From Mugil cephalus (Eukaryota; Chordata; Actinopteri; Mugiliformes; Mugilidae), in NCBI RefSeq assembly GCF_022458985.1, contig NC_061785.1, positions 2,039,816-2,103,815 on the forward strand: a stretch of 64,000 bases of DNA, in the 5' to 3' direction. Each line of letters opens with the position of its first letter. The first letter of the stretch is position 1. Below the pieces are notes generated by a model. That model was not told where the DNA came from and did no database searches. It worked only from the letters and a program-made list of their open reading frames with translations. This document shows positions 9,601 through 52,510 of the stretch, piece after piece. The position numbers and the translations under genes are program-made.

Positions 9601-11401
9601 GATCAGTTTATGTAAAAAGCCAGCAGCAGAGTCTTGGCATTATCAAGTGGGTAGTTTGCCTCACCTTTAATGTTGGCTTGTGAAGGGGTTAGAACATGTC
9701 TTGTAGCAGTTTCTGTAAGTTCTTTGTGTCTTTGCTTTACACCATACCTATATTTGAACCATGTTCCTCTCTGTATGGTGCTTTCCAGAACAGAAAGTCT
9801 TGCTTCTATGATATAGCCTTCCTTTTTTTGACCACTAAACATAAAACAATAAACATTTGTTATGGTTTTATTGAAGCAGACAATCTCACTGCACTCTGAA
9901 GATATATGGACAGGATTTTAAATGAAACTGGAGACAATAGTTTGGGCAACAAGACAACCATGACTAGGCTGAGTTTTAGCTTAGTTGTCACTACAGATCT
10001 CAAACCTATAACTGAAGGAATTATGACCAAAAATACCAATGTCAAATACAAACTGTAGTAAATCGTTGTAACTGGGCCAAATATTTTCTGTCTAATAAAA
10101 TTGGGCAATGTAATAATAAGGACTACTGTTAAGTTGGTTAAAGCTAGCGTGCAAAGCTATTACAAAATCACTTCTGTCTGTATTGTACAGCACACTGAAG
10201 TGGATGACCACCTTTAATACTCACAGAAAATATGTCATTTCAAGGGGGACACATCTTTGATCATGATACAGCACAAGTGTGTCAGTTTCGTTGTTGAATC
10301 TGAACTTCTTGTCCAGCACAGCGTAGATGTAAAAGGTGAACATGGGAGCACCAGGTGGAGCTCTCACTGGGCTTCGATCACTGTTCAGATATCAAAAATA
10401 AAATAATAACACGTTAAGCCGCCAGGTTCAGACTGGTTCAGACTCCCAGTGTTGGATATAATGTTGATGTCAGTCTTACCGTGTGCTTGCTGGCGTTTTG
10501 TCTGAGGCTTTTTTTCCTGACACAGCTTTGGCGTAGGTCGAAGGTTTGGAGGCTGTTTGTGACTGAGATGCTGCAGCATCATCACCAGAGGCTCCGGCAG
10601 CAGGTTTCTCCTCCTCAGGCTTCGACTCGCTCTCAGGTTTCTGGTCGTTGGCTGGTTCTGCTGCTGCCTCGTCTTTTTTCTCTGACAGCGTCTGAACAGC
10701 GTTGTCGTCGCTTGGTTCCGACGTCTGTTTGTCTTGTTTTGGCGCTGTCTTCTCTTTGTTGGTGTCGTCTTGTTTTGGCGCTGTCTTCTCTTTGCTGGCG
10801 TCGTCTTGTTTCAGCTCTGTCTTCTCTTTGCTGGCGTCGTCTTGTTTCGGCTCTGTCTTCTCTTTGTTGGTGTCGTCTTGCTTTGGCTCCTGGGCGTCCG
10901 TCTGAGTTTCCTGGTCCCTCTGACTGATTCCAGTCTGTGTGGATTTGTTGATGCCTTGGTGTTTCTTCGTTTGAGTATGAACCGCTACCATCTTGGAAAC
11001 TCGTTGGTGTGGTGCAGCTCGCTCTTCTTCTTTCTGCTGAGGCACGTCGGCCTGAGTCTGGCTGCTTGAAGTCTCCCCAACCTCCATCTTGTCTTTTCCT
11101 GTGTCTTCTCTTTGGACATTTTGTTTTGCTTTTGAAATGTCCCTTTTCCTCCTTTGGTTCCTCCTTCTTCTCTTCTCTTTCTCTTTGTCTTTCTTGCTGC
11201 GGTTTCCTGCACCGTCCTCCTGCAAAATAAAAGAAAACATTAGCAACATGACGACTCAGATACACGCAGGAAGTTGTTCTTGTGACTGCGCGTCTCTACA
11301 TTATCTTTATTCCGTGGTCTTTTGGTTGCAACATCCTCTGTTCCCTTGGAGTTGTCCTGTGGTCCAGAGGAACCGCGGAGACTTCCGGCTCCGTCCTCCA
11401 T
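614..11401 (-). CDS. rnf213: RNF213 (mysterin) E3 ubiquitin ligase, N-terminal part, 22 coding exons, partial
   Basis: RNF213 is a giant cytosolic AAA+ ATPase and RING-type E3 ligase linked to lipid droplets, angiogenesis and antimicrobial defence. Only the N-terminal third (about 1911 codons) is here; the AAA core and RING lie beyond the left edge. Coding exons, 5' to 3': 11401-11300, 11219-10480, 10380-10225, 9834-9665, 9575-9292, 9206-8959, 8571-8371, 8294-8081, 8002-7947, 7871-7706, 7620-7471, 6800-6702, 6270-6139, 5955-5790, 5702-5535, 5446-5297, 5202-4586, 4240-4081, 3998-3781, 3108-2965, 2880-2728, 1853-614. Phases agree at every junction. Diagnostic matches to the human protein include VDLASISAGEND, ETHGSVEQSSLSLA and SAGNMLFRDW-like blocks. 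Residues 35-281 are Lys/Glu-rich with 12-aa repeats; about 281-390 form the CBM20-like carbohydrate-binding region. The start ATG follows an in-frame TAA at 12518-12520 in the upstream exon. The last exon stops inside a Walker-like SERPAVG motif. I cannot tell which fish paralog this is. Confidence 0.95.
2881..2964 (-). other. rnf213: GC-AG intron in rnf213
   Basis: The 84-bp intron between exons 3108-2965 and 2880-2728 starts with GCAAGT rather than GT, after a consensus AAG exon end, and ends in TTTCAG. The flanking frames join in phase 0 (...NTEK/RCLQN...), so the GC donor is needed; no nearby GT keeps the alignment to RNF213. Confidence 0.8.
5241..5275. repeat. GATA/GATG microsatellite in rnf213 intron
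   Basis: Tetranucleotide run (GATA)n passing into (GATG)n within the intron between exons 5446-5297 and 5202-4586. Confidence 0.9.
10735..10895 (-). repeat. rnf213: Coding 36-bp tandem repeat in rnf213 exon
   Basis: About four to five copies of a 36-bp unit encode the 12-residue repeat PKQDD(A/T)(S/N)KEKT(E/A). Copies differ at a few bases and keep the frame because 36 is divisible by three. The repeat lies in the charged, probably disordered N-terminal segment before the CBM20-like region. Confidence 0.85.
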
Positions 11402-22500: not shown

Positions 22501-25500
22501 AAACGTCGTCATCATCATGAGACGTGTGAATGAAATGAGGACGTGTCCTCGGGGACGGACGGTCTCACCTTGTAGAAGACGTCCGGGACGTACTGCTCGG
22601 GACAGGACTCCTTAGCGAAGCCCAGCTCGGGGGCGTCTTTGCAGGGCAGGAGACAGTCGTCCCTCACCAGAGCCATGCACTGGTTGGACACCTGGTAGCC
22701 TTCAAAGTGCACCTGGTTATCTGGACCACCTGGGACACGGGGACACGGGGACGCAGAGACACGGGGACACGGGGACACAGGGACACAGGGACACAGAGAC
22801 ACGGGGACAGAGGGACACGGGGACAGAGGGACACGGGGACAGAGGGACACGGGGACACAGGGAGACAGGGACACAGAGACACAGGGACACAGGGAGAGAG
22901 ACACACAGACACAGAGACAAAGGGACACAGAGAAAGAGAGACACAGGGACACGGGGACACAGAGACACGGGGACACAGACACAGAGACACAGGGACACAG
23001 GGACACAGGGACACAGAGACACAGAGACAGATGGACACAGGGACACAGGGACAGAGACACAGAGACAGAGACACAGAGACAGAGACACAGAGACAGAGAC
23101 ACAGGCACGCAGAGACACAGAGACACAGGGACAGAGACACAGAGACACAGAGACACAGGGACACAGAGACACAGAGACACGGGGACAGAGACACAGAGAC
23201 AGAGGGACGCAGAGACACAGAGACAGACAGACACAGGGACACAGAGACAGAGAGACACAGGGACACAGAGACAGAGACACAGGGACAGATGGACACAGAG
23301 ACAGATGGACACAGAGACACAGGGACAGAGACAGAGACACAGAGACACAGGGACACAGGGACAGAGACAGAGACACAGGGACAGAGACACAGGCACGCAG
23401 AGACACAGAGACACAGAGACACAGGGACAGAGACACAGAGACACAGGGACACAGAGACACAGAGACACAGGGACACAGGGACACGGGGACACGGGGACAG
23501 AGACACAGAGACAGAGGGACGCAGAGACACAGAGACAGACAGACACAGGGACACAGAGACAGAGAGACACAGGGACACAGAGACAGAGACACAGGGACAG
23601 AGGGACGCAGAGACACAGAGACAGACAGACACAGGGACACAGAGACAGAGAGACACAGGGACACAGAGACAGAGACACAGGGACAGATGGACACAGAGAC
23701 AGATGGACACAGAGACACAGGGACAGAGACAGAGACACAGAGACACAGGGACACAGAGACACAGAGACACAGAGACACAGGGACACAGAGACACAGGCTT
23801 CAGTTCTGTCCTTCAGGACAAAGACAGGAAACTGAAACGTCTTTGTGGCTCAAGAGTCGTCATCCTGTTAAAGTCACGTTTCATTGTAACAGAACCAAAC
23901 AGAGAATAAGTTGTGATGATGTGAGTCTCACGCTGACGCTAACGCGCCTGTTTTTAATTAGCTTAATTAGCTTAATTAGCTTAGCTTCCTTAGCTCTAAT
24001 GCTGCACGGACGGAAGAGACAAAACGTTTGTCACGTCTAAAGAGGCGACGAGGAGGAAACACCTGGAATTAGACTCAACACCTGAGCACACGTAGCATTA
24101 GCATTAGCATTAGCATAAGCATAGCATTTCATTAAAGAGCAGAGATGTAGCGTCTCTGATGAGACAGACCCACCACACTGGTTTAACATTTATTTCTTAG
24201 TCTTAGTTGTATTTATATTATTTAAATTAATATTCTGTTTAACAAATAACTTAGAAATAAAAAGAAACAGTTTTTAGACAAAGTTTCCAAAATAAATAAA
24301 ACCTTAACGCTGCCACAGAGAGTGTGTGATTATTCTCAAACCACAGCTCTTTATTAACTGTAAATACCTGAGTTCGTTCTTCTCTAATGTCTTTATTCTG
24401 ATTTAATCTGAATAATTATTTAAGTGCTTGGTCTGGAGTTAAATTCCTTCGTCCCACATACGAGGAGCCACGAAATAAAAAGGAAGCGTCACATGACTCA
24501 TGTTTAGACCGGTTCATTGGGTCTAAAGGCTGCGACGCGCCGAGCTAACAGGAGGCGTGTCTTTGGTGCTAGCTCGTCTGTAGCTACGTCAGTTAGCTTG
24601 TGTGTTTCATTGCTGACGTCCTTCTGAGACGTACCTGTCGCCACCACCGTCACAAACTTGGACCCGAAGTGTCCGTCTCGGGAAAGTCTGCAGGGGTTCG
24701 AGTATTTGTTCTGGAAGTGTCCGGCCGTGATGCACTCCTCCGCACTCAGGTAGTGAGAGTCCTGGCGTGAGACAAGGACGTTAGAGACACGCGGGGGGAG
24801 GACGAGGACGAGGACGAGGAGCCGTCCCCCGACTCACCTGGTTCCTGGTGTAGCGGACGGTTCCTATCCTCGTGTCCTCAGACAGCAGGTCCGTGAAGAT
24901 CCAGCCCACCTGCAAAACCAGCAGCAACAATCAGCTCCACAACCTTCCACTAACTTCTTTAAACTGTTCCCTGCAGAGCTTCAGGTGTTATTTACGTCTC
25001 TATATTAATATTAATTAATAACGGCTACAGATGGAGACTCTCTGAAAGGTGTTAAAGGCTCATTTTCTGTCCTACTGAATTAACTTCACAGCATTTTGTT
25101 ATTTGTTTGATTCTCTGCTGTAACATTCAGTGTGAAGCTGCCTCTGAAATCGCTTCATGTGTCATTTAACTGCCTCCTTTCCTTAAGAAAAACTGGTTTT
25201 TCACATCAAACCTCCAGCTCTGAGAGCAGCAACTAGAGGGAGACGATGTAGAAGTAAATATCTCTAAACGAATCACATCCAATCAGGAACTCGTGGTGAG
25301 ACTTTGCAGGAATAAATCCTAGTCTCAGTTTAAAGTGAGACACAGAAGCTAAAACACTTGTTTTCACCCACTGATCAATTCTGATATTTTGCTTCATTAA
25401 CTTGTCTTATATCAAACTAGTTTTTTTTTTAAAAAAAAAGTGGTCAAAATGCTCATTTCTCTGCACTTTGTCTGTGTTACGGCTCGAATTTCCTCCTAAA

Positions 25501-28500
25501 TTCATTAAAAGTCGTTTCTGCTTTGAGCCTCGTCTCTGTCTGTAAATGAGGAACTTTTGTGAAGCTCTTTATCTCCTGCAGACGTTTGTCACGTCCAAAT
25601 ATGGTCACATCCTTTTATCGGTGAATGGTGAAAGTAGAAAGACGTCTCATTGGTTGGTGATTAATTAAAAAGTGACCGGATATTCTCCTGATATTCTGTG
25701 TTTATCTGAGAGCGACATTTAAAAAATGTCACGACGTCTTCCAATAAAAATATACATGATTTTACAATGTAAAACTTTAGTTTTTCTGCTGCTCTGACTC
25801 AGAAATCTCCTCTGACACAAACCAAACGTTACACTTTTATTCCTAACGACGTCCTGCAGGTTTTATTATATATCATTCAGAGCCTCATTTATAGAACATT
25901 TTACTCCTAAAAACATGTAAAAATCAGATTTTTCTTTAGACTGTTGACAGTATTTTGTGATTAATGTAGTAATGTTAAAATCCCCTCTGGAAATACCTGG
26001 AAATCTAATATGTTAACAAAATGAAACAAGAATTTTGAACCTCACTTTGCCCATTATTCAGATTTATGGTCTGGAAAAATATGCAAATTAGTGCATATTT
26101 AAATATAAATTCACAGGAAACTTGTATTTATGTAAGTAATCAACTGTAGAAGTGTCATGTTGATATCGATTAGTTGAAATTTTTATCCGAATGAAGTGAA
26201 ATTTTGCAAAGAAAAAAAAGAAACACTGCAGCATCTGAACTCGTGCAGAGAGAAGAACCAGTTTTGAAGCTCAAACTTCAGCCTCTGTGAGAGAAAAGCA
26301 GTAAAAACGGACCTTGCACAGCCCCAGTTTGGCGGCGATTTCGTCCACGGCTGCAGCTTTGGGGTCGTCCACCAGCTCCAGGCTGTTCTGGGTGGCGTTC
26401 TGAAAGCGGGACACGACACCACGTTTAAACCACCAGGTTTTTAAAACCTGAGCGGGACGTCTACACCGGGGCCGAGGCTCTGACCTGCGGGGGCTCGTAG
26501 ATGGCGGCCACCTCGGCGCGGACGCCCAGCGGGATGTCCGTGTGCTCCGTGTACCGGCCGTACAGGTAGCCCATCCGCTGGCTGCCCGTCTTCCTCCAGA
26601 AGTCCAGGAAGCGGTCGGCGATGGTGTGGTTCTCAAACATGATGTTGTCCACGTGTCTGTATTTCTGGGAGGACGGAAGACAAACGTACGTGTTGAGTGA
26701 AATCTCTCGTACGATGGAAACACTAGAGCGGCGTCTGATTTACTCCACGTCTCACCAGCTCCAACTCAAAGACACAGAGGAAAGATTCAACCCAGATCCA
26801 GTTCATCAAAGCTTCTTAATTTAGAAAAGACTCAATGGTTTCAGTCACATGTTTCCTTGGCTTGTTTATCAGATTGACTGTGTTTGGGTTTACTGTGCAT
26901 GTTAGCATGTTAGCATGTGGAAAAGCTGCAAATGAATGAAGGGATAAATAAAGTTCTCTGGATCTCAGTTTCTATACGTGATAGTTTAAATTTACAAAAA
27001 GGTTTTAGTTAGTTTTGGTTAAAGTATGAGTCTTTTATGGGGTGAAAAATAATAATTCTCTCAGTAATTTAACCATTTAATTCAGTTTCAGACTGTGGAT
27101 CATATTCTAACTCTAAACTTACATCCTAACATTTAATATTAGTCGTTGTTTTTAACACATTCAGTGACTTCGATGAAAATAAACGCGCTCGGATGTTGCG
27201 TTCACTGAAACTCAGAAATTCTATTTTCCAACTCGAAACATTTCCTGCTTCCATGATCAGAGCATTAACTCAGGAGATAAGATCAGTTTGTTAAACTGTC
27301 ACTAAAACATGTTCAGCACAGATTTATTTATTTTTTATTCTGGAAGCAGTAATTTCCAGGTTTGACAACTCAGAGCTCATTTTTTCCCACGTTGCCTGAA
27401 TGTTGCATGACCCACCCGACCCTTTCTTCTGATTGGCTACTGATGTTAGTTACTCTCGTTCTATTGGTGGATGAACATCACTAACTGCTCCAACCTGTTT
27501 TTTTTTTTTTTTTTTATTGTAATCTAACGCCACATGCTGGAGATTTAATACTTTTTTTTTATAATCCACTAAAATCTTCTAAATTAAACACATACTCAAA
27601 GAGTAATTAGAGTAATTAGAGTAATTAGTTAATGCTTCACCAAAGGATTAATCAGGGATTAATCGAGATATTAATCGAGATAAAGCCATGAATAAAATCC
27701 CGGCTCCGTCCACACGCTAGCAACAGAAACATGAGGGGTTACCTAGGCAACCAGAGTCCGAACCTGTATGTGTGTTTAGTTCAGGGACCCACCTGTCTGT
27801 TGAGGGTGATGGCGCTGGGCTGACACTTGGTGCAGATGCCCTCGGGCCAGGGGGGGTGGCCCTCGCAGCCCGACTTTATCTTACAGCTGATGTTCTCCAG
27901 AGCTGCAAACTTCCCCCTGGAAGAGGATCAGAGCTCCGCTCTCATTCTGTCACCAGGATCAGAAGATAAAAATAAAAACAACAAACATTTAAATCGAAGC
28001 GCTCACTTGTCGGCGCCGCCCGTCAGCTTGCGAAGGTACGCGTGGAATGACATGTGCTTCACTGGCGGGTCCAGGTGATTCAGGTAGTCTTCGTCAAAAG
28101 GCTGCAGAAGAAAAAAGAAGCTCCGTTAACTCTGCACGAGGATGAATAATCTGAGAAACAACACGTTTAAACGCCTCTTACCTCTAACGGTACACAGTGC
28201 ACACACTTTCCAAGGGCACTATGGCGACATCTGGAACGAGAGGAGGAGCGTTTAGAAACAACACCTGCATTTAACCTGCGTCTAACCCGCGCTCGCTCGC
28301 TCTTACAGCTGAGGGTCTTTGTTCCTGTAGATCTTCCCGTCCTGCTTGGCCAGATACTGATCGATCTCGTCCTCCTGGACCTGGGGAGCCGAGAAGGAGC
28401 GAGGGATCATGGAGGAGGACGACGAGGAAGAGTGCGACGACGAGGAGGACGAGGAGGAGACGGACGGTAGCGAGGAGGACGTGTGCGGGGTGGCCGTGTC

Positions 28501-29952
28501 CATCACCTCCCCGGAGGAGGAGGAGGAGGAGGAGGCCGAAGGGAACAGGAACAACATGTCGCCGTGCCTGCGAAACCAAAGAGACGGAACCAGATCATTA
28601 AAAACGCCTGTTTTTAGCAGCAAAAACTACACAAATAATCGGCTTCACGGCTCCAGTCAGACCCTGTTATGATATTAGCAGAAGTTTTGATGCCTGAATG
28701 AACGGAGACAAACATCCCTATGACGAACTCAGCACAAAAAAAGAAGTTTTGCCACTTATCCACCAAGGTTTGGAAAGATGTTGGAAGCAGCAGAAAAACG
28801 AATGAAATAAACCTTTTATTCCCCTGTAACCGGGATATGGTTCATTTTTAGTGTTGGACACTAAAAATGACAAATTTGACCATTTTTCTCATAAACTAAA
28901 CTGGAATATTTCATTACATGTCGTTATAATGGGACATTTTTGTCGTAAATTTAAAAATTTTCATGTTTTTCTTCGTAAAAAACAACAGTGACTTCGATGA
29001 ATCAAACTGGGATTTAAAGGGTTAAAACTTTTTGGTAGTTTTTAAAGCGACGCGCTGGTTTAACACACAGACACAGAGAGATAATACAAACTCATCTGAC
29101 GATTATTTCCATCGGTATCATCTGTATTTTTATTGCACTACTTTTAAGCAAACGAACTGTTTTCAGTGAAAAATTTAACTTTAATGATAAAAAATGAAAT
29201 TTACACAGACGTGGATTTGGCCTTTGCCCACATTCATTCCTCGTACTTTAGTTTGTGGTGTTTTTTTAGGGGATTAATTGTGTTATTTTACGGCGCAGAC
29301 ACGTTTCTGACGCAGTCTGCTGCATAAAACCTGTTCTCGTTTCACGTCACTCGCCCTAAATCCAGAACAAGTCCAGACAACGGACGTGGATCCTTGTTAT
29401 TCAGGCGGCTGAACGAAGCCTGACCCACGCGTTCGCCCCCTGGTGGTTGGATGACCACTGGAGACGCAGCCGAGGCTTCATTTTAAACGTGAATAATGAA
29501 TTAAATCGTGTCAGTCGCAAACATTGAACGTGTGTCTTACTCACTTGATCTTCAGCAGACTCAGCGCTTTGTTCTGGGAAACCACCTCTCCGGTCTTGTC
29601 GCGGTTCACGTACACAGAGAACCCGTTGGAGTTGAACCCAAACTCTTTGGCCACCTGAAGGAGCCGACATGTTTTTATTCCATAACTGGAGACAAACAAA
29701 CCGGTGCTTTTAAAACGGTGCCTTTTTTTTTAAATTTTATGGCATTTTGTGACGTGCAAGTTGAACAGAATTAAACAGAAACAGAATTAAAATAATATAA
29801 ATACAACTAAGACAGAAATTCACAACAAACCGTCATAATTCCATAACCATAATAAACTATAAACCCTAATTCTCCTAATTAAAGCAGTGGCCTGGCAGCA
29901 AAGACGGTTCATTTCTAAGCTTTAAAAAAATGTTTATTCAGATTCGAGGTGT

Positions 29953-36702: not shown

Positions 36703-39578
36703 ATGGGTACGTGCTTTTAGTCCTTAATAAATGTAATAATAATATAATAAAGTCATTTTATTTGTCATTATTTACATAATCTCACACACAAAAAAACAGC
36801 TGAGAGTGTAAATGCAATAATAATATTAACTCCTGATTTAGTTCAGAGGGACTTTATAAAACACACTGTTCTCTGTTTTATTTATGTTTTATTTTTTCAG
36901 AAAATAGTTTATTTTAACGTTAGAGGCCTTCAGGATAGATTTAAAAGCAATGTTCCTCTTTTTACTCTCTTTTAAATATGTAAAGTTTATGGTCACAATG
37001 AGACGACACATGAAAAAAAAAAGTCTGCTCAAGTTTATTCAAAGTGAAATATTTCACAAGAAAAATACAAATATTTAATTATAGGACGTTAATGATGCTA
37101 CAAATGATTTGCCACAACTTATGTGAGTGAGAAATTCTCTTTAACCTCAAAGGCAACTTATATCTGAAGTTATCTGATAATAAGATGATGTCAATACATT
37201 TACTAATAATAATTAAACTAATAAACTGTTGATATGATACATGTTTAAGGAGGAATAATGCACAAGTTTCCATTTTATCTTTCTAGTCTGTGATTATTTC
37301 ATATTCTTGTTATTTTAGAATTTATTTTATTTTATTCTCACTTATACAAGTTTTTTATTATTTTATTATTTTAAAATAAAAATGATGTAGTTCACACACA
37401 GTCTGTTTTGTAGGATATTTAATGCAACTATTTAAATCCATAATGAGCATTTATCCCTTTAAAAACTGCATTTTTACTAAAACAGTCTCAATGAAATATA
37501 CACAAAATAACCTGCAGTTCAGATTCTATTTCAGCAAGTTTCATTATACGTGTCTAAACAAACTTTAAGAAATATGAAAAACTAAAAAGAAAAGAAAAGA
37601 AAGAAAGAAAGAAATGTCTGCTGTCAGTTCTTCCAGGTGTATATATGTTTATATATCTGTCAGGATGTTTAAGGGACATTCAGCCAGAACCACGGTAATA
37701 ATAATGTGGTAATAATAGTAATAATGTAAATGTGAAGGTGCAGTCTGGGAATGTTCATGTTTTCCACAGATATATTATAAAATAATGCTTCATACGACTA
37801 AACAGAAATCATGTTTCAACTTTTCACAACTCGTAAACAGCTTGAGAGACGCCTCCTTTCATCCTTTCACCTTTGAACGTCATGTAATTGATGCTTCATT
37901 AGGATTTAAAGTCCTTTAGTGACGTGACTCTAGTTTCTCTAAGTTAAACACATATTTTAATCTACACACGTTTATTTAGTTTGTTATTTGGACATTTAAG
38001 TTTGACTTGTTTCTGGAGAATCTGAAACCTTTTTGTTTTGAGGTGTTTAGATGAAAGTGACGTCTCCACGTTTCGCTGTTGTTTCCCTGTTGTTTCCCTG
38101 TTGTTTCCGTGTTGTTTCCCTGTTGTTTCCGTGTTGTTTCCCTGTTGTTTCCCTGTTGTTTCCCTGTTGTTTCGCTGTTGTTTCCTGTTGTTTCCCTGTT
38201 GTTTCCCTGTTGTTTCCCTGTTGTTTCCCTGTTGTTTCGCTGTTGTTTCCCTGTTGTTTCCCTGTTGTTTCTGTGTTGTTTCCCTGTTGTTTCCATGTTG
38301 TTTCTGTGTTGTTTCCCTGTTGTTTCCCTGTTGTTTCGCTGTTGTTTCCTGTTGTTTCCCTGTTGTTTCCCTGCAGACGTCCAGCATCTCCCTGTGATCA
38401 AGGACGAGTTTCCCGTCCACATAAAGGAGGAAGAGGAGGACGTGTGGACCGGTCAGCGAGGAGAACATCTCACCGCTGCCGGCGTGAAGAGTGAAGATGA
38501 CGAGGATAAACCTCAGGTTTTACTCCATCAAAGCCAAACTGAAGCCAGAAGCGAAGCCAGCAGCTCGCTTCAACCGGCGAAAACCGAGCGTGAAGACGTC
38601 GACTGTGGAGGAACCGGAACAACCAGGAACCCAGATCCAGACGTACGAGCAGATACCGACAGAGACGCTTCAGACTCTTCTGACACCGACGCCACCGATG
38701 ACGACGACGACTGGGACGAAGCTCTGTCAGATTCTGCGTCTGAAAGCGAAGAGAGCGACGACGACTGGAAGGACACGGGGATAACGCGGAACTCAAGAAA
38801 ACCTTCCTCCAGCTCCTCGGTTGATAAGAAACGTTCGAGGCGAAACGTCGACGCAAAGAAGGGAGCTCACGCACAAGAGCAGCCGTTTCACTGTGACGAT
38901 TGCGGTAAAAGATTCAAGCAGAAGACGCAGTTCGTCACGCACTTGGCGGCGCACACGGGAGAGAAACCGTACGGCTGCGACGAGTGCGGGAAAAGATTCT
39001 GTACCTCGTATTACCTGAAGCTGCACAAGGCGTCGCACAAGGAGGAGAGACCGTACGGCTGCAGCGAGTGCGGGAAGAAGTTCAACACGCAGTCGGTTCT
39101 GAACATGCACATGACGATTCACACGGGAGAAAAACCTTTCAGCTGCAGCAGCTGTGGCAGGAAGTTCAGACTGAAAGGTGACCTGACGTTACACATGATC
39201 ACACACTCAGGGATCAAACCGTTCGGCTGTGGCGACTGTGGCGCCAGGTTCAGCCGACAGAGCAGCCTGCAGAGACACGCCCGGCTTCACGCCGGAGAGG
39301 ACGGCAAAAGGTTCGTCTGCGACGACTGCGGGAGGAAGTTTTACCGGAACTCGCACCTGAAGAGGCACGTGGTGCTTCACAAAGCGGCGCCAAGAGTCGA
39401 CACGGGAAAGAGGCCGTTCTCCTGCGACGACTGTGGGAAAAAGTTCAAGCGGAAGACGCATCTCAACGCGCACACGGCGCTTCACTCGGGAGAGAAACCG
39501 TTCGGCTGCACGGTTTGTGACGCAAAGTTTTCCCGACCGGACAGTCTGAGGAGACACGCGAAAATCCACGCGGAGTAG
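36703..39578 (+). CDS. C2H2 zinc-finger protein, eight fingers, 401 aa
   Basis: Exon 1 contributes only ATG G (36703-36706, donor GTACGT). Exon 2 is 38377-39578 after a CCCTGCAG acceptor, giving MDVQHLPVIKDEFPVHIKEEEEDVW..., the N-terminus usual for fish multi-finger ZNF genes. Residues 1-170 are acidic and Ser/Asp-rich, with no KRAB, SCAN or BTB domain seen. Eight C2H2 fingers follow (about 172-400): FHCDDC, YGCDEC, YGCSEC, FSCSSC, FGCGDC, FVCDDC, FSCDDC and FGCTVC, each with the paired histidines. HTGEKP-type linkers occur after fingers 1, 3 and 7; others are altered, and a longer linker (HKAAPRVDTGKRP) separates fingers 6 and 7. It is a likely nuclear DNA-binding regulator; target and orthology are unknown. 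AATAAA at 39601-39606 is a likely poly(A) signal. The frame stays open through the upstream repeat, so a longer start at 38079 is a false extension. Confidence 0.88.
38078..38372 (+). repeat. 11-bp minisatellite TTTCCCTGTTG at the zinc-finger gene acceptor
   Basis: About 26 copies of TTTCCCTGTTG, with TTTCGCTGTTG, TTTCCGTGTTG and 10-bp variants, run into the acceptor CCCTGCAG. The unit is pyrimidine-rich, so it supplies the polypyrimidine tract. It lacks stops, giving long false frames on both strands. Confidence 0.97.
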
Positions 39579-40195: not shown

Positions 40196-40412
40196 CCTAA
40201 CTTCTTTGCTTTTTTTCCTCTTTTGAATAATGAATACCGACTACTGCCACCTGCTGTTATAAAGAGTTATTTCCTCTCAGGTGCAGAGTTTATGTACGAG
40301 CTGTCTCTAGTCTCTGTGGTGCATTCAAGTGCAACTTTCTGGGCGACTGCATTTAAACCTCTTTGATTCTGGTGGCGTCTCTTTGGCGTCGCTGCTCTGG
40401 CCGTTAGCTGCA

Positions 40413-40475
40413 GTATCTACGGTGAAGCACGGCGGTGGCAGCATCATGTTACGGGGCTGTTCTCCAGCAGCTTTT
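40413..40475 (+). mobile_element. Tc1/mariner transposase relic
   Basis: Translates to VSTVKHGGGSIMLRGCSPAAF, matching the conserved KHGGGSIMxWGC block of Tc1-like transposases. The frame does not continue as transposase on either side, so this is a short decayed fragment. Confidence 0.6.
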
Positions 40476-41242
40476 GTGTACGAATGATGCGTGAACTGGA
40501 AAGTTTGATGTGTGTGAAGATCTACTGAAGCTGTAGCGACACCAAGGATGGATTTGACTGGAAGAAACAAAATCTCCTTATTTATTTTCCTGTTTTTATG
40601 CTTTATTGTTTTTTTTCCCTCGTCCTGTAGAGAGGACAAAAGCTCCGTCACACATCTGTGCAGATGTGACGGCGGCGCTGAAACATCCGACCGCTCCTCG
40701 TCCCTCTGCCGCCTTTAAACACCTCCTCTAACCTCTGACCATGAAGAGGGCAGCAAAATAAAACAAGCACTGAACAACTGGTGATAGATGAAGGACAGCG
40801 AGGGAAAAGTTGGAAAAAAAAAAAAAAAACGGCTTAAAAAGACAAATATAAACACACATGGTACAATAGTGTCGCATTTGAGACAGAAACAGCAAATAAC
40901 ACACAACATATATGAATCAAATATGGTACAAATACGAAGAGACGCTGATGTTGGAACAAGCTTGAATGGAAGTGCGACGTGTTTGGATAATTTGAGACCC
41001 AGGATTTGGAGACGGAGGGAGAAGAAGACGAGCTGGTGTCGTCTCTCTACAGAAGTCAGGGCTTTAGTTTTTTTGTTTTTTTTCACTTCTTCGGTGTGGA
41101 TGGAGAAGCCTCCGCGACGGCGTCAGGATGCACCGAAGCACGCGCAGTGGGAACCCACCCACTCCACGGGTTCGTCACTTAAACTCAACGTGAGGCTGCC
41201 TTGCTTGCGTAGGTTTCTGGTTTGGTTTCGTGAAGAGAACAG

Positions 41243-42024: not shown

Positions 42025-43418
42025 GTTGGGCGCGAGTGCGGAGCGTTGGCCTCAGAGACGCCTCTCTGGAGCGCAGTCGTCGTGGTGAAACCTGGAGACG
42101 GAAGCGTTTTGATTTAAGAACGAAGCTCCCGTCACCTCTGTCTGACATTACAGCCTCTAATCCTCTTACCGACGCTTCCAGCTCCAGATTTATGCTCTGT
42201 GTATTTCTGTGGAACCGTGGACTGAGAGGATGACCCAGTTTTCCCCCGTAATCCCCAGGTCGAGTTAATAAGAGCTGCACCTTCTCACTTTCAATCAATC
42301 AGTTCGTGCAGATAATCTCGTTAAAGCAAGGACGACGCACCAGAAACGCTGAGCTACGCACCCAGAGTCTAAACGATCAATCCTCTCAGAGCGTCCCAGG
42401 ACAAATGACGACCTCCTCCCCACGACGTGGAAACGCACCACAGAAGAAGAAGAAAATAAAACTTTGATGCTGCGTTTCCTGATTTAAATCTGCAACTTTT
42501 TTAGGACGTTTTGTTTCTGGCAGCGAGTTACTAGTTTACAAGCTGGTGAAAATATCCATGAAGCCACTGAATCAAACTCATATTATTATAAATATTAATC
42601 AGATGTTTGTTCACACTAACTCATTTACTTCCACTTGTCTGAGGCCAGAAGCATTTAGCACAAAACTGAAGACAAAATCTATTTTCTCGTGTTTAATCTC
42701 GTGTTTAAAATCCCGCTGGTATTTTATCATGAGATTAAACACATCCAGCGTATAAATAAATAAATAATAAATAAATCCCTCTTGTCTCTAAACCTTAAGT
42801 AACAAATCATTTCAGAAGCAGAGATACTGTGTAAAACACAACAGCTACATTAAGTGAATGTTCCCTTTAACTCCAACAGTCGTGGCAGTTTTGTTTATTT
42901 TTAATATTTCTTGTCTGTGTTTGATGTTTATTTAACTCATGAAATCTAGAGGCTGCTGCACTTTCACATTCTTTAATCAGACACAACTATTGCCATAAAT
43001 AAAAGTGGTGATATCAGACCGTTGAACCTGGACTCTACAAAAGAGGATTAAACCGCGATGTTACAACGTCAGCACAAATACTGGCACCACAAGCAGAATG
43101 GATGAAAATTTAAATCTCCTCCTCTCTAAGTAAAACAAGTGATGAATTTCTGTCGAGACGTGAGTTGAATTTAAATAGTTCACACAAACACAAATGAACC
43201 ATTAGTCGGCAAAATGAGAAATAAAGGCAGAAACAAAAACACTGACTTTAAAAGACTAATTTAATTTGCTATAGCTGAATTAAGCTGATATAAATAACGT
43301 GACCTGATATTAGTGACTAATACGTCTTAGCGTTCTGAACTTCCTTCAGCTTGAGTTTCCTCACATCTTTAAGTTTTATTTCTAAGCTGCACTGACTCCA
43401 AACTGTTGGTCTACTCAC

Positions 43419-43515
43419 CGGCTGATTGGGTGAAGAACAGCCAGACGAGCGGGTGTGAACGCAGCACTGGTCGGTCTAGCAGATGAGTGGACTTCTATGC
43501 TAGGCTTTGCTGTGA
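43419..43515 (-). other. pde6g: Probable 5' UTR exon of pde6g
   Basis: A GTGAGT donor (plus 43413-43418) ends a short exon without an ATG that starts a useful frame. Its 5' end is placed about 30 bp downstream of the TATA box at 43541-43546. The spliced product joins the acceptor at 42092-42093. Confidence 0.55.
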
Positions 43516-43540
43516 GGGCCAGCGGGGGCTGAGGGCCCCT

Positions 43541-43573
43541 CTTATACGCTGCACGAGTCCTGCAGGAGATTAG
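43541..43573 (-). promoter_or_regulatory. pde6g: pde6g core promoter: TATA box and CRX/OTX-like site
   Basis: The minus strand carries TATAAG at 43546-43541 and, about 20 bp upstream, CTAATCT at 43573-43567, a match to the (C/T)TAATC(C/T) element bound by CRX/OTX homeoproteins in photoreceptor promoters. Spacing and gene identity agree. Binding is inferred. Confidence 0.5.
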
Positions 43574-43579
43574 GAAGAC

Positions 43580-45625
43580 GCCGCCTCCCTGCGCCGGCGT
43601 CAGCGCCTCACACGTTTCAGATAAAGTAACCGAGCAGTTCATACACATGGCACATATACAAACATGTGACATTTACCCACATGAAAACATCCAGCACATA
43701 TAATATATATCCACCACCGTCACCGTACAAGCTGCACAAAAACAGCTGCAGACGGTCACAGGGTCAGCGCTCGTCTCTGGAAGGTGGTTTTTTGTTCTCA
43801 GCTCTGAAGTAGCAGTAAGGACAGTCAACGTAAATCATCCCACAAGAACCATCACAACCGTTTAGGATGACGTCTGGGACTTCTGCTGCTCTCCTGTCCA
43901 TCGCCACATTAAGCCACAGAGAAAAGGGTTTCACTGGCCTCATCAGGTCTTTGCTGGAGCAGGATCAGTTCCCAGCGGAGAGACACCAGACCAGTGCTCA
44001 TCAGGAGAAACTACACAAACGTTTAGACTCATAAACAGTAGCTTTACCTGAGGAAATGCATTCTGGGAAATCTGACTCCTCCACCCTCCAGGCAGGTCCT
44101 CGATGAAACGGGACGGAGGACGAGAGGACACCGGGGCGTCTGGACCAGGATTTACATCGTTTTATTATTACATTTATTCAGTGTTTATCTCCGTCAGATC
44201 CTCCGTCCAATGAGGATTATTTACCTGGTGATGCTGTGATTAAAGTGGATGTTCTGCTTCATTAACAGGTTTATTATTCAGGTTTAACAACATCCCGATG
44301 CACAGAACCTAGAACCTGAGCCGGTTCTGACTGGAAACTGAAATAAAATAACTTCTTATGAGTGTTTCTTATATTTTAAATGCAACATTTGCGTGTTTTT
44401 GCAGAGTGATGCCAGTTCCTGATCCTACATTTCATAAAGTCTAATTTAACCTTTAACTGGAACCATTTAATGTTTGAGCTTCAGTTTGTAGACGTCTGGA
44501 AAACGTCTTCAACCTGAGAATAGAACCAGCAGCTGCATGTGTGCGATATTTGTGTGATGGTTTTGGTTCATTCTCACACTGTAAAGTTTAATCATATTAT
44601 TGGCGCGTTGTAATTTTAATTAATTTTTAAGTATTTATGTAGATAAACATTACATTACATTAGGAGCACGTTACACACTGGGTTTGTGTCTAGTGTTTGT
44701 GTGTTTTGTGCGACGCTCGTAGCATGGTGAACTTAGAATTACTAAAATACATATATATATATATATTATACTTTAGGTATACTTGTAAGTTTGCTTAGCT
44801 TGTTACTTGTAGCATATTATATATATATACTTGAAATATACTTGTTAAAGTATTTCTAAACACATATTATGTGTACACTAGACTGCAGCGTATTTACAAT
44901 ATCACAACACACACATCTACAAATACCTGCTTAAGTCATTAAAGATGTGAATTACTACCTAGTACTGCAACTACTACTGTAAAACTGTAACTCTAAACGT
45001 TTAAACTCTGTTTGATTTGATCTTGAACGTGTGCGTTTATATCAGGTAATATCTCAAAGTAAATGTGTTCAGGTAACACAAGTAAACTTCATGTAAACTG
45101 CCTCAGTTTTACTATAAAATTACTTGTAGTAAACTTGAATAAACTACTTTTTGCTCATTGTCCATAAACTTAATAAAGTATTGAAATAAAGGAGACGCCA
45201 GAATTCTGCAGAGTCATGAATTATTTCATTTCTTAATATTTGTGATGCGTCTCTTCCAGAAACGTCTCCAGGAACCTCGAGTCTAATTAAACCAGAGGCC
45301 TGAGGAGGAATGTGTCGCTGCAGATTATGGATGCGACGGGAAGATTCCCTGTTATGCAACGGTCTCACCACCTGCCTCCAATCCTCCTGATAATGATCAT
45401 ATGAGTCTAATAATCTGCAGCAGGGAGGCATCATCCAACCTGAGGCCGAGGAAAAGAAACAGAGTTCAGCACCTTCACATGCTTAATATCTGATTATTGA
45501 TTAATGCTTAAATATCAGGTCATTAAATGTACAACAGAATAAAATAAAAAAAATAAACTATAAGTAGCACAAACAACACGTTAAGTTTGAGAAGAGGTTG
45601 AATGACAACCTGCAGAGATGGACAA
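43580..45625. other. Gene-free stretch upstream of pde6g
   Basis: Unique and mildly repetitive DNA. A segment at 43880-43920 (CTGTCCATCGCCACATTAAGCC) resembles one at 56953-56975, suggesting an old interspersed repeat. TA-rich motifs occur at 44750-44860. No exon is visible. Confidence 0.5.
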
Positions 45626-45628
45626 CAG

Positions 45629-46488
45629 CTGTAGCCTAGTCTACTGCTAACTAAACCGCTAACTTTAGCTTATTCTACTGCTAATTAAACAGCTAACTGT
45701 AGCTTATTCTACTGCTAATTAAACAGCTAACTGTAGCTTATTCTACTGCTAACTAACCCGTTAACTGTAGCTTATTCTACTACTAACTAACCCGTTAACT
45801 GTAGCTTATTCTACTGCTAACTAAACCGCTAACTGTAGCTTATTCTACTGCTAACTAAACCGCTAACTGTAGCTTATTCTACTGCTAACTAAACCGCTAA
45901 CTGTAGCTTACTCTACTGCTAATTAAACCGCTAACTGTAGCTTATTCTACTGCTAATTAAACCGCTAACTGTAGCTTATTCTACTGCTAACTGTAGCTTA
46001 TTCTACTGCTAATTAAACCGCTAACTGTAGCTTTTTCTACTGCTAATTAAACCGCTAACTGTAGCTTATTCTACTGCTAACTAAACCGCTAACTGTAGCT
46101 TATTCTACTGCTAACTAAACCGCTAACTGTAGCTTATTCTACTGCTAACTAAACCGCTAACTGTAGCTTACTCTACTGCTAATTAAACCGCTAACTGTAG
46201 CTTATTCTACTGCTAATTAAACCGCTAACTGTAGCTTATTCTACTGCTAACTGTAGCTTATTCTACTGCTAATTAAACCGCTAACTGTAGCTTATTCTAC
46301 TGCTAACTAAACCGCTAACTGTAGCTTATTCTACTGCTAACTAAACCGCTAACTGTAGCTTACTCTACTGCTAATTAAACCGCTAACTGTAGCTTATTCT
46401 ACTGCTAATTAAACCGCTAACTGTAGCTTATTCTACTGCTAACTAAACCGCTAACTGTAGATTATTCTACTGCTAATTAAACCGCCAA
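45629..46488 (+). repeat. 34-bp minisatellite, array A
   Basis: About 25 copies of GCTAACTGTAGCTTATTCTACTGCTAATTAAACC. Variants include CTAACTAAACC and a shortened unit (CTGCTAACTGTAGC) at about 45988 and 46248. Variant positions recur 260 bp apart (45901/46161 and 45961/46221), showing a higher-order duplication. Its reverse complement matches array B near 52 kb at about 31 of 34 positions. Confidence 0.95.
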
Positions 46489-46899
46489 CTGAGAACCATC
46501 AATCAACAGATCAGAAGCCAGCAGAGAAATGCTTTTTACTATTATTATTTTAATGCAAATACAAAAAGGAAAATCCCCAAATAAATATAATCAGTGATAT
46601 AAAATATTAAATTACGTTCTGTGGAATCATGGTGCACGTTTTACACCAATGTCCTGATGCAGAGTGACTGCAGCCTTCAGGCGTTTCCATGGCGTCAGAG
46701 TCACAGGGTTCAGGGTTGTGAGTGAAAGGCCTCCATCATAATCCAAAGCATAACCCAGACCCAGTCATCAGGACCGGTCCCTAAAACCAGCCGAGTGCTG
46801 AGTCCGTCAGAGAGATCGGACTGAACGTGTCCTGCTTGTTCTCTGACATGTTCATCAGGTCTTTACTGGACTAATTCATGTTCACCTCATCTCTGAAAC

Positions 46900-47555: not shown

Positions 47556-48370
47556 CTGGTCCTGGACGTGATATATATTATTCATAAAACAAACACCTGT
47601 TGCACCACATATGTGTAACTGGGATGGATGGATGCTGAGTTTTTTTGTTTTTTAAATGTTTGCACGCTGGGAGAGAGAGGCAGGTGTCCAGGTCAGTGTC
47701 CAGGTACCTGAAGGACTCAGACCCTGGTTTAATTGGTTGGTTTAAACTGTAGGTACTGACTCTCTGTTTAGGAGACATTTAACTCCAGGGAGAGCGGGTT
47801 AAATGTCTGGGTTCCAGGTTTCAGACTGGATTGGCATATTTAAAAAGGTTCAGTCCCTCACTGTCACAGGTGAAGAGATAAAAAGAGATAAAAGGGATAA
47901 AACACAACATCTGTGTTTATCGTCAGCTTGTCTGATTTAAAACCATTAAGAAGGACCAGTTGTGGCGTCTCTTTTTAAAAAGGTCCTGATCCATAACCAG
48001 TGAGGGATGAACATGAAGGTCTACAAGGCCAAACAGCAGCGTATCTATGCGCCACATCTGGCAGCTCGCATCAGCTTCCTAAAATACTCTCCACATGTTA
48101 ACACAGTGTGAACCACAGCAGCAAAGGTCTAAAGAGAAGGAGGAACAACGACTGGTGAACGTGTGACGTTCTACTGCCACGAATCCTTCACGTCTTCCTT
48201 CGGAGTCTGATCTCCATCTTCAGGTAGGCTTTAAGATTCTCATCCAGGACGTTCTCCTCGATGGCGGCGAGCGCTCGGTCTCCCCCGTCCTGGTAGAACG
48301 CCAGCAGCTGCTCCGCATGTTCGATCCACACACAGTTGTGGCAGCCGCTCATGCAGCAGTGGGTGGGGGC

Positions 48371-48502
48371 CGGCGGGGGCCCCTGATCCGGGGACCACGG
48401 CGGGGGCCCCTGATCCGGGGACCAGGCGGGGGCCCCTGATGCGGGGACCAGGGCGGGGGCCCCTGATCCGGGGACCACGGCGGGGGCCCCTGATCCGGGG
48501 AC
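48371..48502 (-). repeat. oxld1: 27-bp coding minisatellite in oxld1
   Basis: Four to five copies of a GC-rich 27-bp unit (on plus: CCACGGCGGGGG, then CCCCTGATCCGGGGA). The copy starting near 48422 is 26 bp (CCAGGCGG against CCAGGGCGG) and carries a second change, GATGCGG. In frame it encodes SPDQGPPPW. Confidence 0.9.
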
Positions 48503-48959
48503 TCAGAGGACTCGGAGGACTCGGCCGCCGCGAGGGGGGAGGACGGGGAGCCGTGAGCGTCCGAGAGGCAGCGGACGAGAAGACGAGTCGTCCATGGACG
48601 CTGAGGACAACGACAGAAGGGATGTGGGGACATGTGGGACAGCGAGAGGAGGCACAGCTGGAAAACAGAAAAACAATACAATTACATTAAAATGGATTAG
48701 AAAGCATCAAAAACACAAACTGATTTCATTTACACACTTATACACCACAAGTTTTAGATCAGCATCAGTGACCTCTGGTATTGTTGCTTCATCCTACAGC
48801 GAAATAATGACACAAAACTTTAGTAGACAAAGATGGCTACTGTTCTGAGCTCCCTGTCTCCTCCGTATATATTTACATATATTCTGTCAATATATATATA
48901 TGAATAAACAAATAAGACACGTTTCGGTGTTAAAATAGCACTAATAGAGCAGGATATTT

Positions 48960-49048
48960 ATTAAAATATTAACAACAGAGCTGCTAAGTGCCTAGCTACC
49001 GTTAGCTTAGCTACCGTTAACTTAGCTACCGTTAGCTTAGCTACCGAC
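48960..49048. repeat. Short GCTACCGTTAGCTTA tandem repeat
   Basis: About four 16-bp copies of TTAGCTACCGTTAGC-type sequence directly after oxld1 exon 1 on the transcribed strand, running up to the splice donor. Confidence 0.75.
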
Positions 49049-49099
49049 CTTTTGTAAGGTTACCGACGATCTCGCGGCATTTACAGCCACACACAGCAT

Positions 49100-51564: not shown

Positions 51565-52510
51565 TAATAGATAGGCTACAGTTAGCAGCTTAGTTAGCAA
51601 TCAGTTAGCAGTACAGTAGACAGTTAAGTTAGCAGTTTAGTTAGCAGCAGCAGCAGAGGCTACAGTTAGCAGTATAGTTAGCAATCAGTTAGCAGTACAG
51701 TAGACAGTTAAGTTAGCAGTTCAGTTAGCTGTAGAGTAGGCTACAGTTAGCAGTATAGTTAGCGGTTTAGTTAGCAGTAGACTAGGCTACAGTTAGCAGT
51801 TTAATTAGCAGTAGCGGAGGCTATAGTTAGCAGTATAGTTAGCAGTAGACTATTGTACAGTTAGCGGTTTTTTAGCAGTAGCGGAGGCTACAGTTAGCAG
51901 TATAGTTAGCGGTTTAGTTAGCAGTAGACTAGGCTACAGTTAGCAGTTTAATTAGCAGTAGCGGAGGCTACAGTTAGCAGTATAGTTAGCGGTTTAGTTA
52001 GCAGTAGAGTAGGCTACAGTTAGTATAGTTAGCGGTTTAGTTAGCAGTAGAGTAGGCTACAGTTAGCAGTTTAGTTAGCAGTAGAGTAGGCTACAGTTAG
52101 CAGTATAGTTAGCAGTATAGTTAGCGGTTAAGTTAGCAGTAGACTATGCTACAGTTAGCGGTTTTTTAGCAGTAGCGGAGGCTACAGTTAGCAGCATAGT
52201 TAGCAGTAGAGTAGGCTACAGTTAGCAGTTTAGTTAGCATTAGAGTAGGCTACAGTTAGCAGTTTAGTTAGCAGTAGACTAGGCTACAGTTAGCAGTTTA
52301 GTTAGCAGTAGAGTAGGCTACAGTTAGCAGTATAGTTAGCGGTTTAGTTAGCAGTAGACTAGGCTACAGTTAGCAGTTTAGTTAGCAGTAGAGGCTACAG
52401 TTAGCAGTTTAATTCATAGCAGAGTTAGCATTTAATCAGTACAGTTAGCAGTTTAGTTAGCAGTAGACTAGGCTACAGTTAGCAGTTAAGTTAGCAGTAG
52501 AGTTAGCGGC
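51565..52510 (+). repeat. GTTAGCAGTAGA minisatellite, array B, inverted relative to array A
   Basis: Many copies of CGGTTTAGTTAGCAGTAGACTAGGCTACAGTTAG, interleaved with shorter CAGTATAGTTAGC segments. The unit differs from the reverse complement of array A at about three of 34 positions. The array is more irregular than A. Confidence 0.95.

Follow-up and report, generated by a model that had tools for sequence, protein, structure and literature searches.

The closest described counterparts of the locus reported here are coding repeats in which a single base is gained or lost, and they are given here as described in excerpts of the papers cited. The CEL VNTR (CEL-MODY / MODY8) consists of coding units whose length is divisible by three, and in its deletion variants one unit lacks one base, which shifts the frame from there onward (PMC8692231). 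Among the single-base deletions in this 33-bp repeat, DEL9 was reported with a carrier frequency of 0.0023 (3 people) and DEL13 with a carrier frequency of 0.0008 (1 person; n=1287) (PMC8692231). A cytosine duplication in the MUC1 VNTR is likewise a frameshift in a coding VNTR (PMC7248079). With regard to ADTKD-MUC1, the likeness to our locus extends to a GC-rich coding repeat and a one-base frameshift that is hard for short reads (PMC7248079, PMC5843638), and the GC-rich coding VNTR of MUC1 is said to escape massively parallel sequencing (PMC5843638). False indels correlated with GC content, which break coding frames, have been described in older vertebrate assemblies built on Sanger or Illumina data, the rise with GC being smaller in an Illumina-based hummingbird assembly (PMC9516821). 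PCDH17, for example, showed false frameshifting insertions in its GC-rich first coding exon (PMC9516821).

A comparable configuration was observed in the window, which is the whole stretch of 64,000 nucleotides of Mugil cephalus DNA that was analysed. Here, a repeat unit of 27 bp, which is divisible by three, occurs in the coding sequence of an OXLD1-like gene, and one unit differs in length by one base. The features of this gene are the following.

49049 to 49099, minus strand: candidate OXLD1 exon 1, with the ATG at 49099 (MLCVAVNAARSSVTLQK).
48188 to 48657, minus strand: OXLD1 exon 2, 470 bases, from the acceptor TTTTTCTGTTTTCCAG before its first base, 48657, to the stop codon at which the domain frame ends.
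48503 to 48657, minus strand: upstream frame, LCLLSLSHMSPHPFCRCPQRPWTTRLLVRCLSDAHG..., presequence-like as judged by eye.
48503 to 48505, minus strand: TGA upstream of the array, which closes the domain frame.
48369 to 48502, minus strand: coding minisatellite of five copies, unit peptide WSPDQGPPP, supported by splitting of the minus strand, Tandem Repeats Finder and lag self-match.
48476 to 48502, minus strand: copy 1, 27 bases.
48449 to 48475, minus strand: copy 2, 27 bases.
48423 to 48448, minus strand: copy 3, 26 bases, one base short; the frame changes here.
48396 to 48422, minus strand: copy 4, 27 bases.
48369 to 48395, minus strand: copy 5, 27 bases.
48349 to 48422, minus strand: reading of the upstream frame after the short copy, ending at the TGA 48351-48349.
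48188 to 48368, minus strand: Oxidored-like domain and C terminus, no stop, matching PF09791 and PDB 7zm7 chain o.

The frame at 48188-48502, hereafter the domain frame, matches the Pfam family PF09791 (Oxidored-like) with an E value of 8.1e-10 and 38.7 bits, above the curated cut-off of 24, and the match covers positions 10-37 of the 46 positions of the profile. In a sequence search, the same frame matches PDB 7zm7 chain o, 'Oxidoreductase-like domain-containing protein' (E 2.4e-4), the sequence of which is also present in 7zmb and 7zmg. We take these three entries to be fungal complex I, and 7zm7 to be that of Chaetomium thermophilum. The resemblance to OXLD1 and PF09791 proteins resides in the domain, which reads CCMSGCxNCVW here and is matched by both Pfam and 7zm7 chain o. 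In contrast, the WSPDQGPPP array that stands before the domain sets this gene apart from them, the array being known here from one sequence. The neighbours of the gene are NPLOC4, recognised by a match to a PDB sequence, and PDE6G, recognised by Pfam. This fits what we assume to be the neighbourhood of human OXLD1, which presumably comprises NPLOC4 and PDE6G. The domain match and the neighbourhood bear out the gene identity proposed in the earlier note, and the host gene of exon 2 is, judging by its sequence, OXLD1-like and otherwise intact-looking. None of the literature matches listed for OXLD1 or C17orf90 was about a repeat in the gene, and none of those listed for OXLD1 with mitochondrial terms was about such a repeat. 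The one paper matching OXLD1 and zebrafish concerned pigmentation, none of the papers matching coding minisatellites and frameshifts was on OXLD1, and none of the matches listed for Chaetomium complex I proteins was about this protein. These negative results, judged by titles and the openings of abstracts, are no proof that such a case has never been published.

Tandem Repeats Finder reported the minisatellite at 48371-48502, with a period of 27, 4.9 copies, 95% matches and a score of 243. When the array was compared with itself, 89 of 110 positions matched at a lag of 27 and 67 of 111 at a lag of 26. As both values exceed those at the 12 other tested lags (20-25 and 28-33), where 20 to 49 of 104 to 117 positions matched, the periodicity is not due to chance. 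The GC content of the array is 81%, compared with 41% for the window. Read on the minus strand, copies 1 to 5 measure 27, 27, 26, 27 and 27 bases, which confirms that the frame is broken by one 26-bp copy in a 27-bp coding minisatellite, as previously claimed. Two other long arrays flank OXLD1, at 45629-46491 and at 51573-52507, with 34-base and related units on GCTAAC / GTTAGC; by eye, the second seems to belong to the same family as the first, in the opposite orientation.

The end of copy 3 reads CCGCC-TG, compared with CCGCCGTG in copies 1 and 4 and CCGCCCTG in copy 2. On the plus strand, this corresponds to a GG at 48425-48426 instead of the expected CGG or GGG, in agreement with the place given for the lesion in the earlier note (near 48425). 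Copy 3 exhibits a second difference, GCATCAG in place of GGATCAG, which changes D to H. Since the G5, C4 and G4 tracts do not vary in length among the five copies, the missing base sits in a run of two to three bases and not in a long homopolymer. The suggestion of an assembly error in a homopolymer is thus right in a loose sense only, because the run concerned is two versus three bases long and the longer tracts are unchanged.

As recorded, OXLD1 does not have one continuous reading frame, as it is broken at copy 3. From the splice acceptor, the upstream frame encodes WSPDQGPPP (once WSPHQGPPP) through copies 1-3, and the domain frame encodes the same WSPDQGPPP in copies 4-5 and then continues into the Oxidored-like domain. 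The stop-to-stop frames involved, 48349-48681 and 48188-48502 on the minus strand, overlap at the frame switch. The two halves are therefore in different frames with the switch at the short copy, and the domain frame has a TGA just upstream, at 48503-48505, both as the first reading of this DNA had it. No other stop was found within the two half-frames of exon 2. Because only one of the five near-identical copies is short and the half-frames have no other stop, the lesion is most likely younger than the array expansion, be it a change of the genome or of the record. The one copy of the gene examined has a broken frame, as it would if the lesion were real and OXLD1 were a dying pseudogene in this lineage. 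However, we consider this very unlikely, as there is no sign of decay: besides the stop-free half-frames, the domain scores above the cut-off and the acceptor is good.

The acceptor of exon 2 scores 7.19, which corresponds to percentile 99.2 among 4111 minus-strand AGs; all splice scores given here derive from a matrix of base frequencies and not from a trained tool. Candidate exon 1 has a donor, AAG GTCGGT, and a shorter alternative, TCG GTAACC, with 49064 as the last exon base. These donors score 1.78 and -0.54, respectively, compared with 8.32 and 0.67 for two NPLOC4 donors in the window, and both are in phase 0, so that exon 1 would join the upstream frame of exon 2. With such mediocre donors, the exon 1 model is put forward as a proposal. 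Introns are short, the one measured having 76 bases. A 15-base repeat, TAGCTACCGTTAGCT, with 3.6 copies at 48993-49046, adjoins the candidate exon 1 donor. The first 32 residues of the upstream frame include neither D nor E and, judged by eye, this start suggests that the N terminus is a putative mitochondrial presequence. Neither the upstream frame nor the third frame gave a Pfam match. The openness of the upstream frame was rejected as proof of coding, given that its 51 codons were also open in 2947 of 5000 first-order resamples; across the array, all three minus-strand frames and one plus-strand frame are open. The case for the upstream frame lies rather in the agreement between the register of the repeat, the acceptor, the phase of candidate exon 1 and the presequence-like composition.

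These phases also bear on the possibility that a genuine, fixed lesion is bypassed by splicing, either through an acceptor in copy 4 or 5 or through a phase-1 donor joined to copies 1-3, the repeat being partly skipped. Every copy contains CAG GGG, and in copies 4 and 5 (48409 and 48382, respectively) this site is in phase 0 in the domain frame. As exon 1 has phase-0 donors, the phases agree, and a transcript joining exon 1 to 48409 or 48382 would continue in frame through the domain. A real NPLOC4 acceptor in the window scores only 2.94, which is near the 1.33 of copy 3, so the scores are compatible with splicing at these sites. However, the in-array acceptors score from -2.11 to 1.33 (-0.39 for copy 4 and -2.11 for copy 5), compared with 7.19 for the ordinary acceptor, and they owe their existence to a chance CAG in the repeat unit. 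The phase-1 donor, at 49045, scores -1.53. Such a bypass is thus unlikely, and the previous statement that no continuous frame exists is correct for ordinary splicing, whereas the in-array acceptors, which are weak sites, do give one on paper.

Alternatively, the domain frame could be restored during translation by minus-one ribosomal slippage. Beyond the short copy, the heptamer G GGC CCC (X XXY YYZ) occurs twice in the phase needed, at 48409 and at 48382, ahead of the stop at 48351, and the sequence downstream is GC-rich. Nevertheless, the heptamer belongs to the repeat unit and is brought into phase by the very shift in question, the slippery codon is a poor one with Y = C, and folding of the array as RNA does not surpass that of its shuffles (z -0.36), so we regard slippage as extremely improbable. 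As DNA, the array also folds no better than its own shuffles (z 1.11), and strong secondary structure of the array as the cause of the lesion was not supported by either value. That the frameshift is tolerated because the array's own escape routes, i.e. the CAG acceptors and the in-phase G GGC CCC, let some domain product form seems distinctly unlikely as well.

The explanation that we favour, with somewhat better than even confidence, is a consensus or base-calling slip of one base in a GC-rich repeat, the gene of the animal itself probably reading through. According to this explanation, the linker between the presumed presequence and the Oxidored-like domain would have grown into a five-copy in-frame minisatellite of 27-base units, and base calling or consensus building would have dropped one base in copy 3 of this near-identical repeat with 81% GC. 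We thus infer that the missing base is probably technical in origin. In favour of this, only copy 3 of the five is short, the domain half is stop-free before 48188 and matches PF09791, and the upstream frame is stop-free from a strong acceptor into the repeat, in the register used by the domain half. The GC content of the array, far above that of the window, the GC-linked false indels of other vertebrate assemblies (PMC9516821) and the difficulty of sequencing the MUC1 VNTR (PMC5843638) point the same way. Against it, the affected run has two or three bases, which is untypical of homopolymer failure, the NPLOC4 and RNF213 frames are clean where checked, and the folding results offer no special structure that could have caused a slip.

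With regard to these neighbouring frames, residues 30-608 of human NPLOC4 are entirely covered (579/579 residues) by 16 alignment segments in the window, two of which score low when taken singly (1.7 and 11.6 bits). The frame changes at 10 of the 15 steps between segments, and all 10 have room for a GT-AG intron, although the test accepted any GT-AG pair at least 60 bases apart near the step, which long stretches pass easily. Two of the frame-changing steps were viewed base by base and are plain introns. The RNF213 match extends over 418 aa in one unbroken frame; in this control, one of the three frames gave no match and much of the RNF213 part was left unaligned. As NPLOC4 is covered with intron-compatible steps and the RNF213 frame is unbroken, a generally error-rich stretch is not supported. 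Nevertheless, a few kilobases of clean NPLOC4 and RNF213 frames are compatible with a local error in the array. No Pfam match was found in 570-1880 (an RNF213 exon), 10476-11255, 38400-38800, 40385-40714, 43415-43672 or 45144-45482.

Several other low-complexity stretches were observed in the window. At 22700-23850, a repetitive stretch leaves very long frames of the DTGTQRHRD and SLCLCVPVS types open on both strands, the longest having 474 aa, and abuts an NPLOC4 exon at about 22569-22733. The NPLOC4 exon frame 28303-28626 contains, in frame, a serine-rich stretch at which the alignment with human NPLOC4 splits. At 38061-38400, a VVSLLFPCCFP repeat shares its open frame with the C2H2 zinc fingers of 38061-39578.

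The main alternative to a slip in the record is a real and recent one-base deletion, heterozygous or homozygous, that arose through slippage or unequal repair and gave a null allele. Such an allele would encode the presumed presequence followed by three repeats and, up to 48351, a GPRIRGPRR tail, and the domain would be lost. Comparable events have been described in coding VNTRs, namely CEL (PMC8692231) and MUC1 (PMC7248079), in the excerpts cited, and no frame break inside an exon was found in the conserved coding sequence checked in the window. In contrast, null alleles of a conserved gene are expected to be rare, and the reference would have had to sample one. We regard a real deletion as a serious possibility but a clearly less probable one than an error: as a reference carrying a null allele is less expected than a slip in a repeat, the error was given more weight than the real allele. 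Both weights are a matter of judgement. The alternatives listed in the earlier note, i.e. a damaged or polymorphic gene or an assembly error, are therefore supported as a list.

The comparison with the described systems also reveals differences. The CEL repeat lies in the last exon and its deletion variants keep enzymatic activity, according to the excerpt cited (PMC8692231), whereas the OXLD1 array precedes the sole recognised domain, which would be lost. Moreover, the CEL cases were shown in people, whereas the OXLD1 case rests on one assembly. In MUC1, the event is the gain of a base in a 7-C run within a 60-bp unit, as far as described in the cited parts (PMC7248079, PMC5843638), compared with a deficit in a run of two to three bases of a 27-bp unit in OXLD1. 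The false indels of vertebrate assemblies resemble our case by the frameshift in the GC-rich 5' part of a gene; in the excerpted text, those cases were judged by a second assembly and reads (PMC9516821), whereas the OXLD1 case is known from one assembly sequence.

The finding is of an ordinary kind, probably either a slip in sequencing or assembly or a private mutation of recent origin. By analogy with the known coding VNTRs, the suggestion that the repeat may act as a mutational hotspot is plausible. If the lesion is an error, it illustrates that a single base in a GC-rich repeat is enough for a gene to appear lost. If it is genuine, a vertebrate gene that has been little studied would be knocked out naturally, and OXLD1 would be another example of a gene made fragile by a coding minisatellite. 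If 7zm7 is indeed complex I, the match to its chain o hints at a link between OXLD1 and the respiratory chain, and the gene may bear on respiration.
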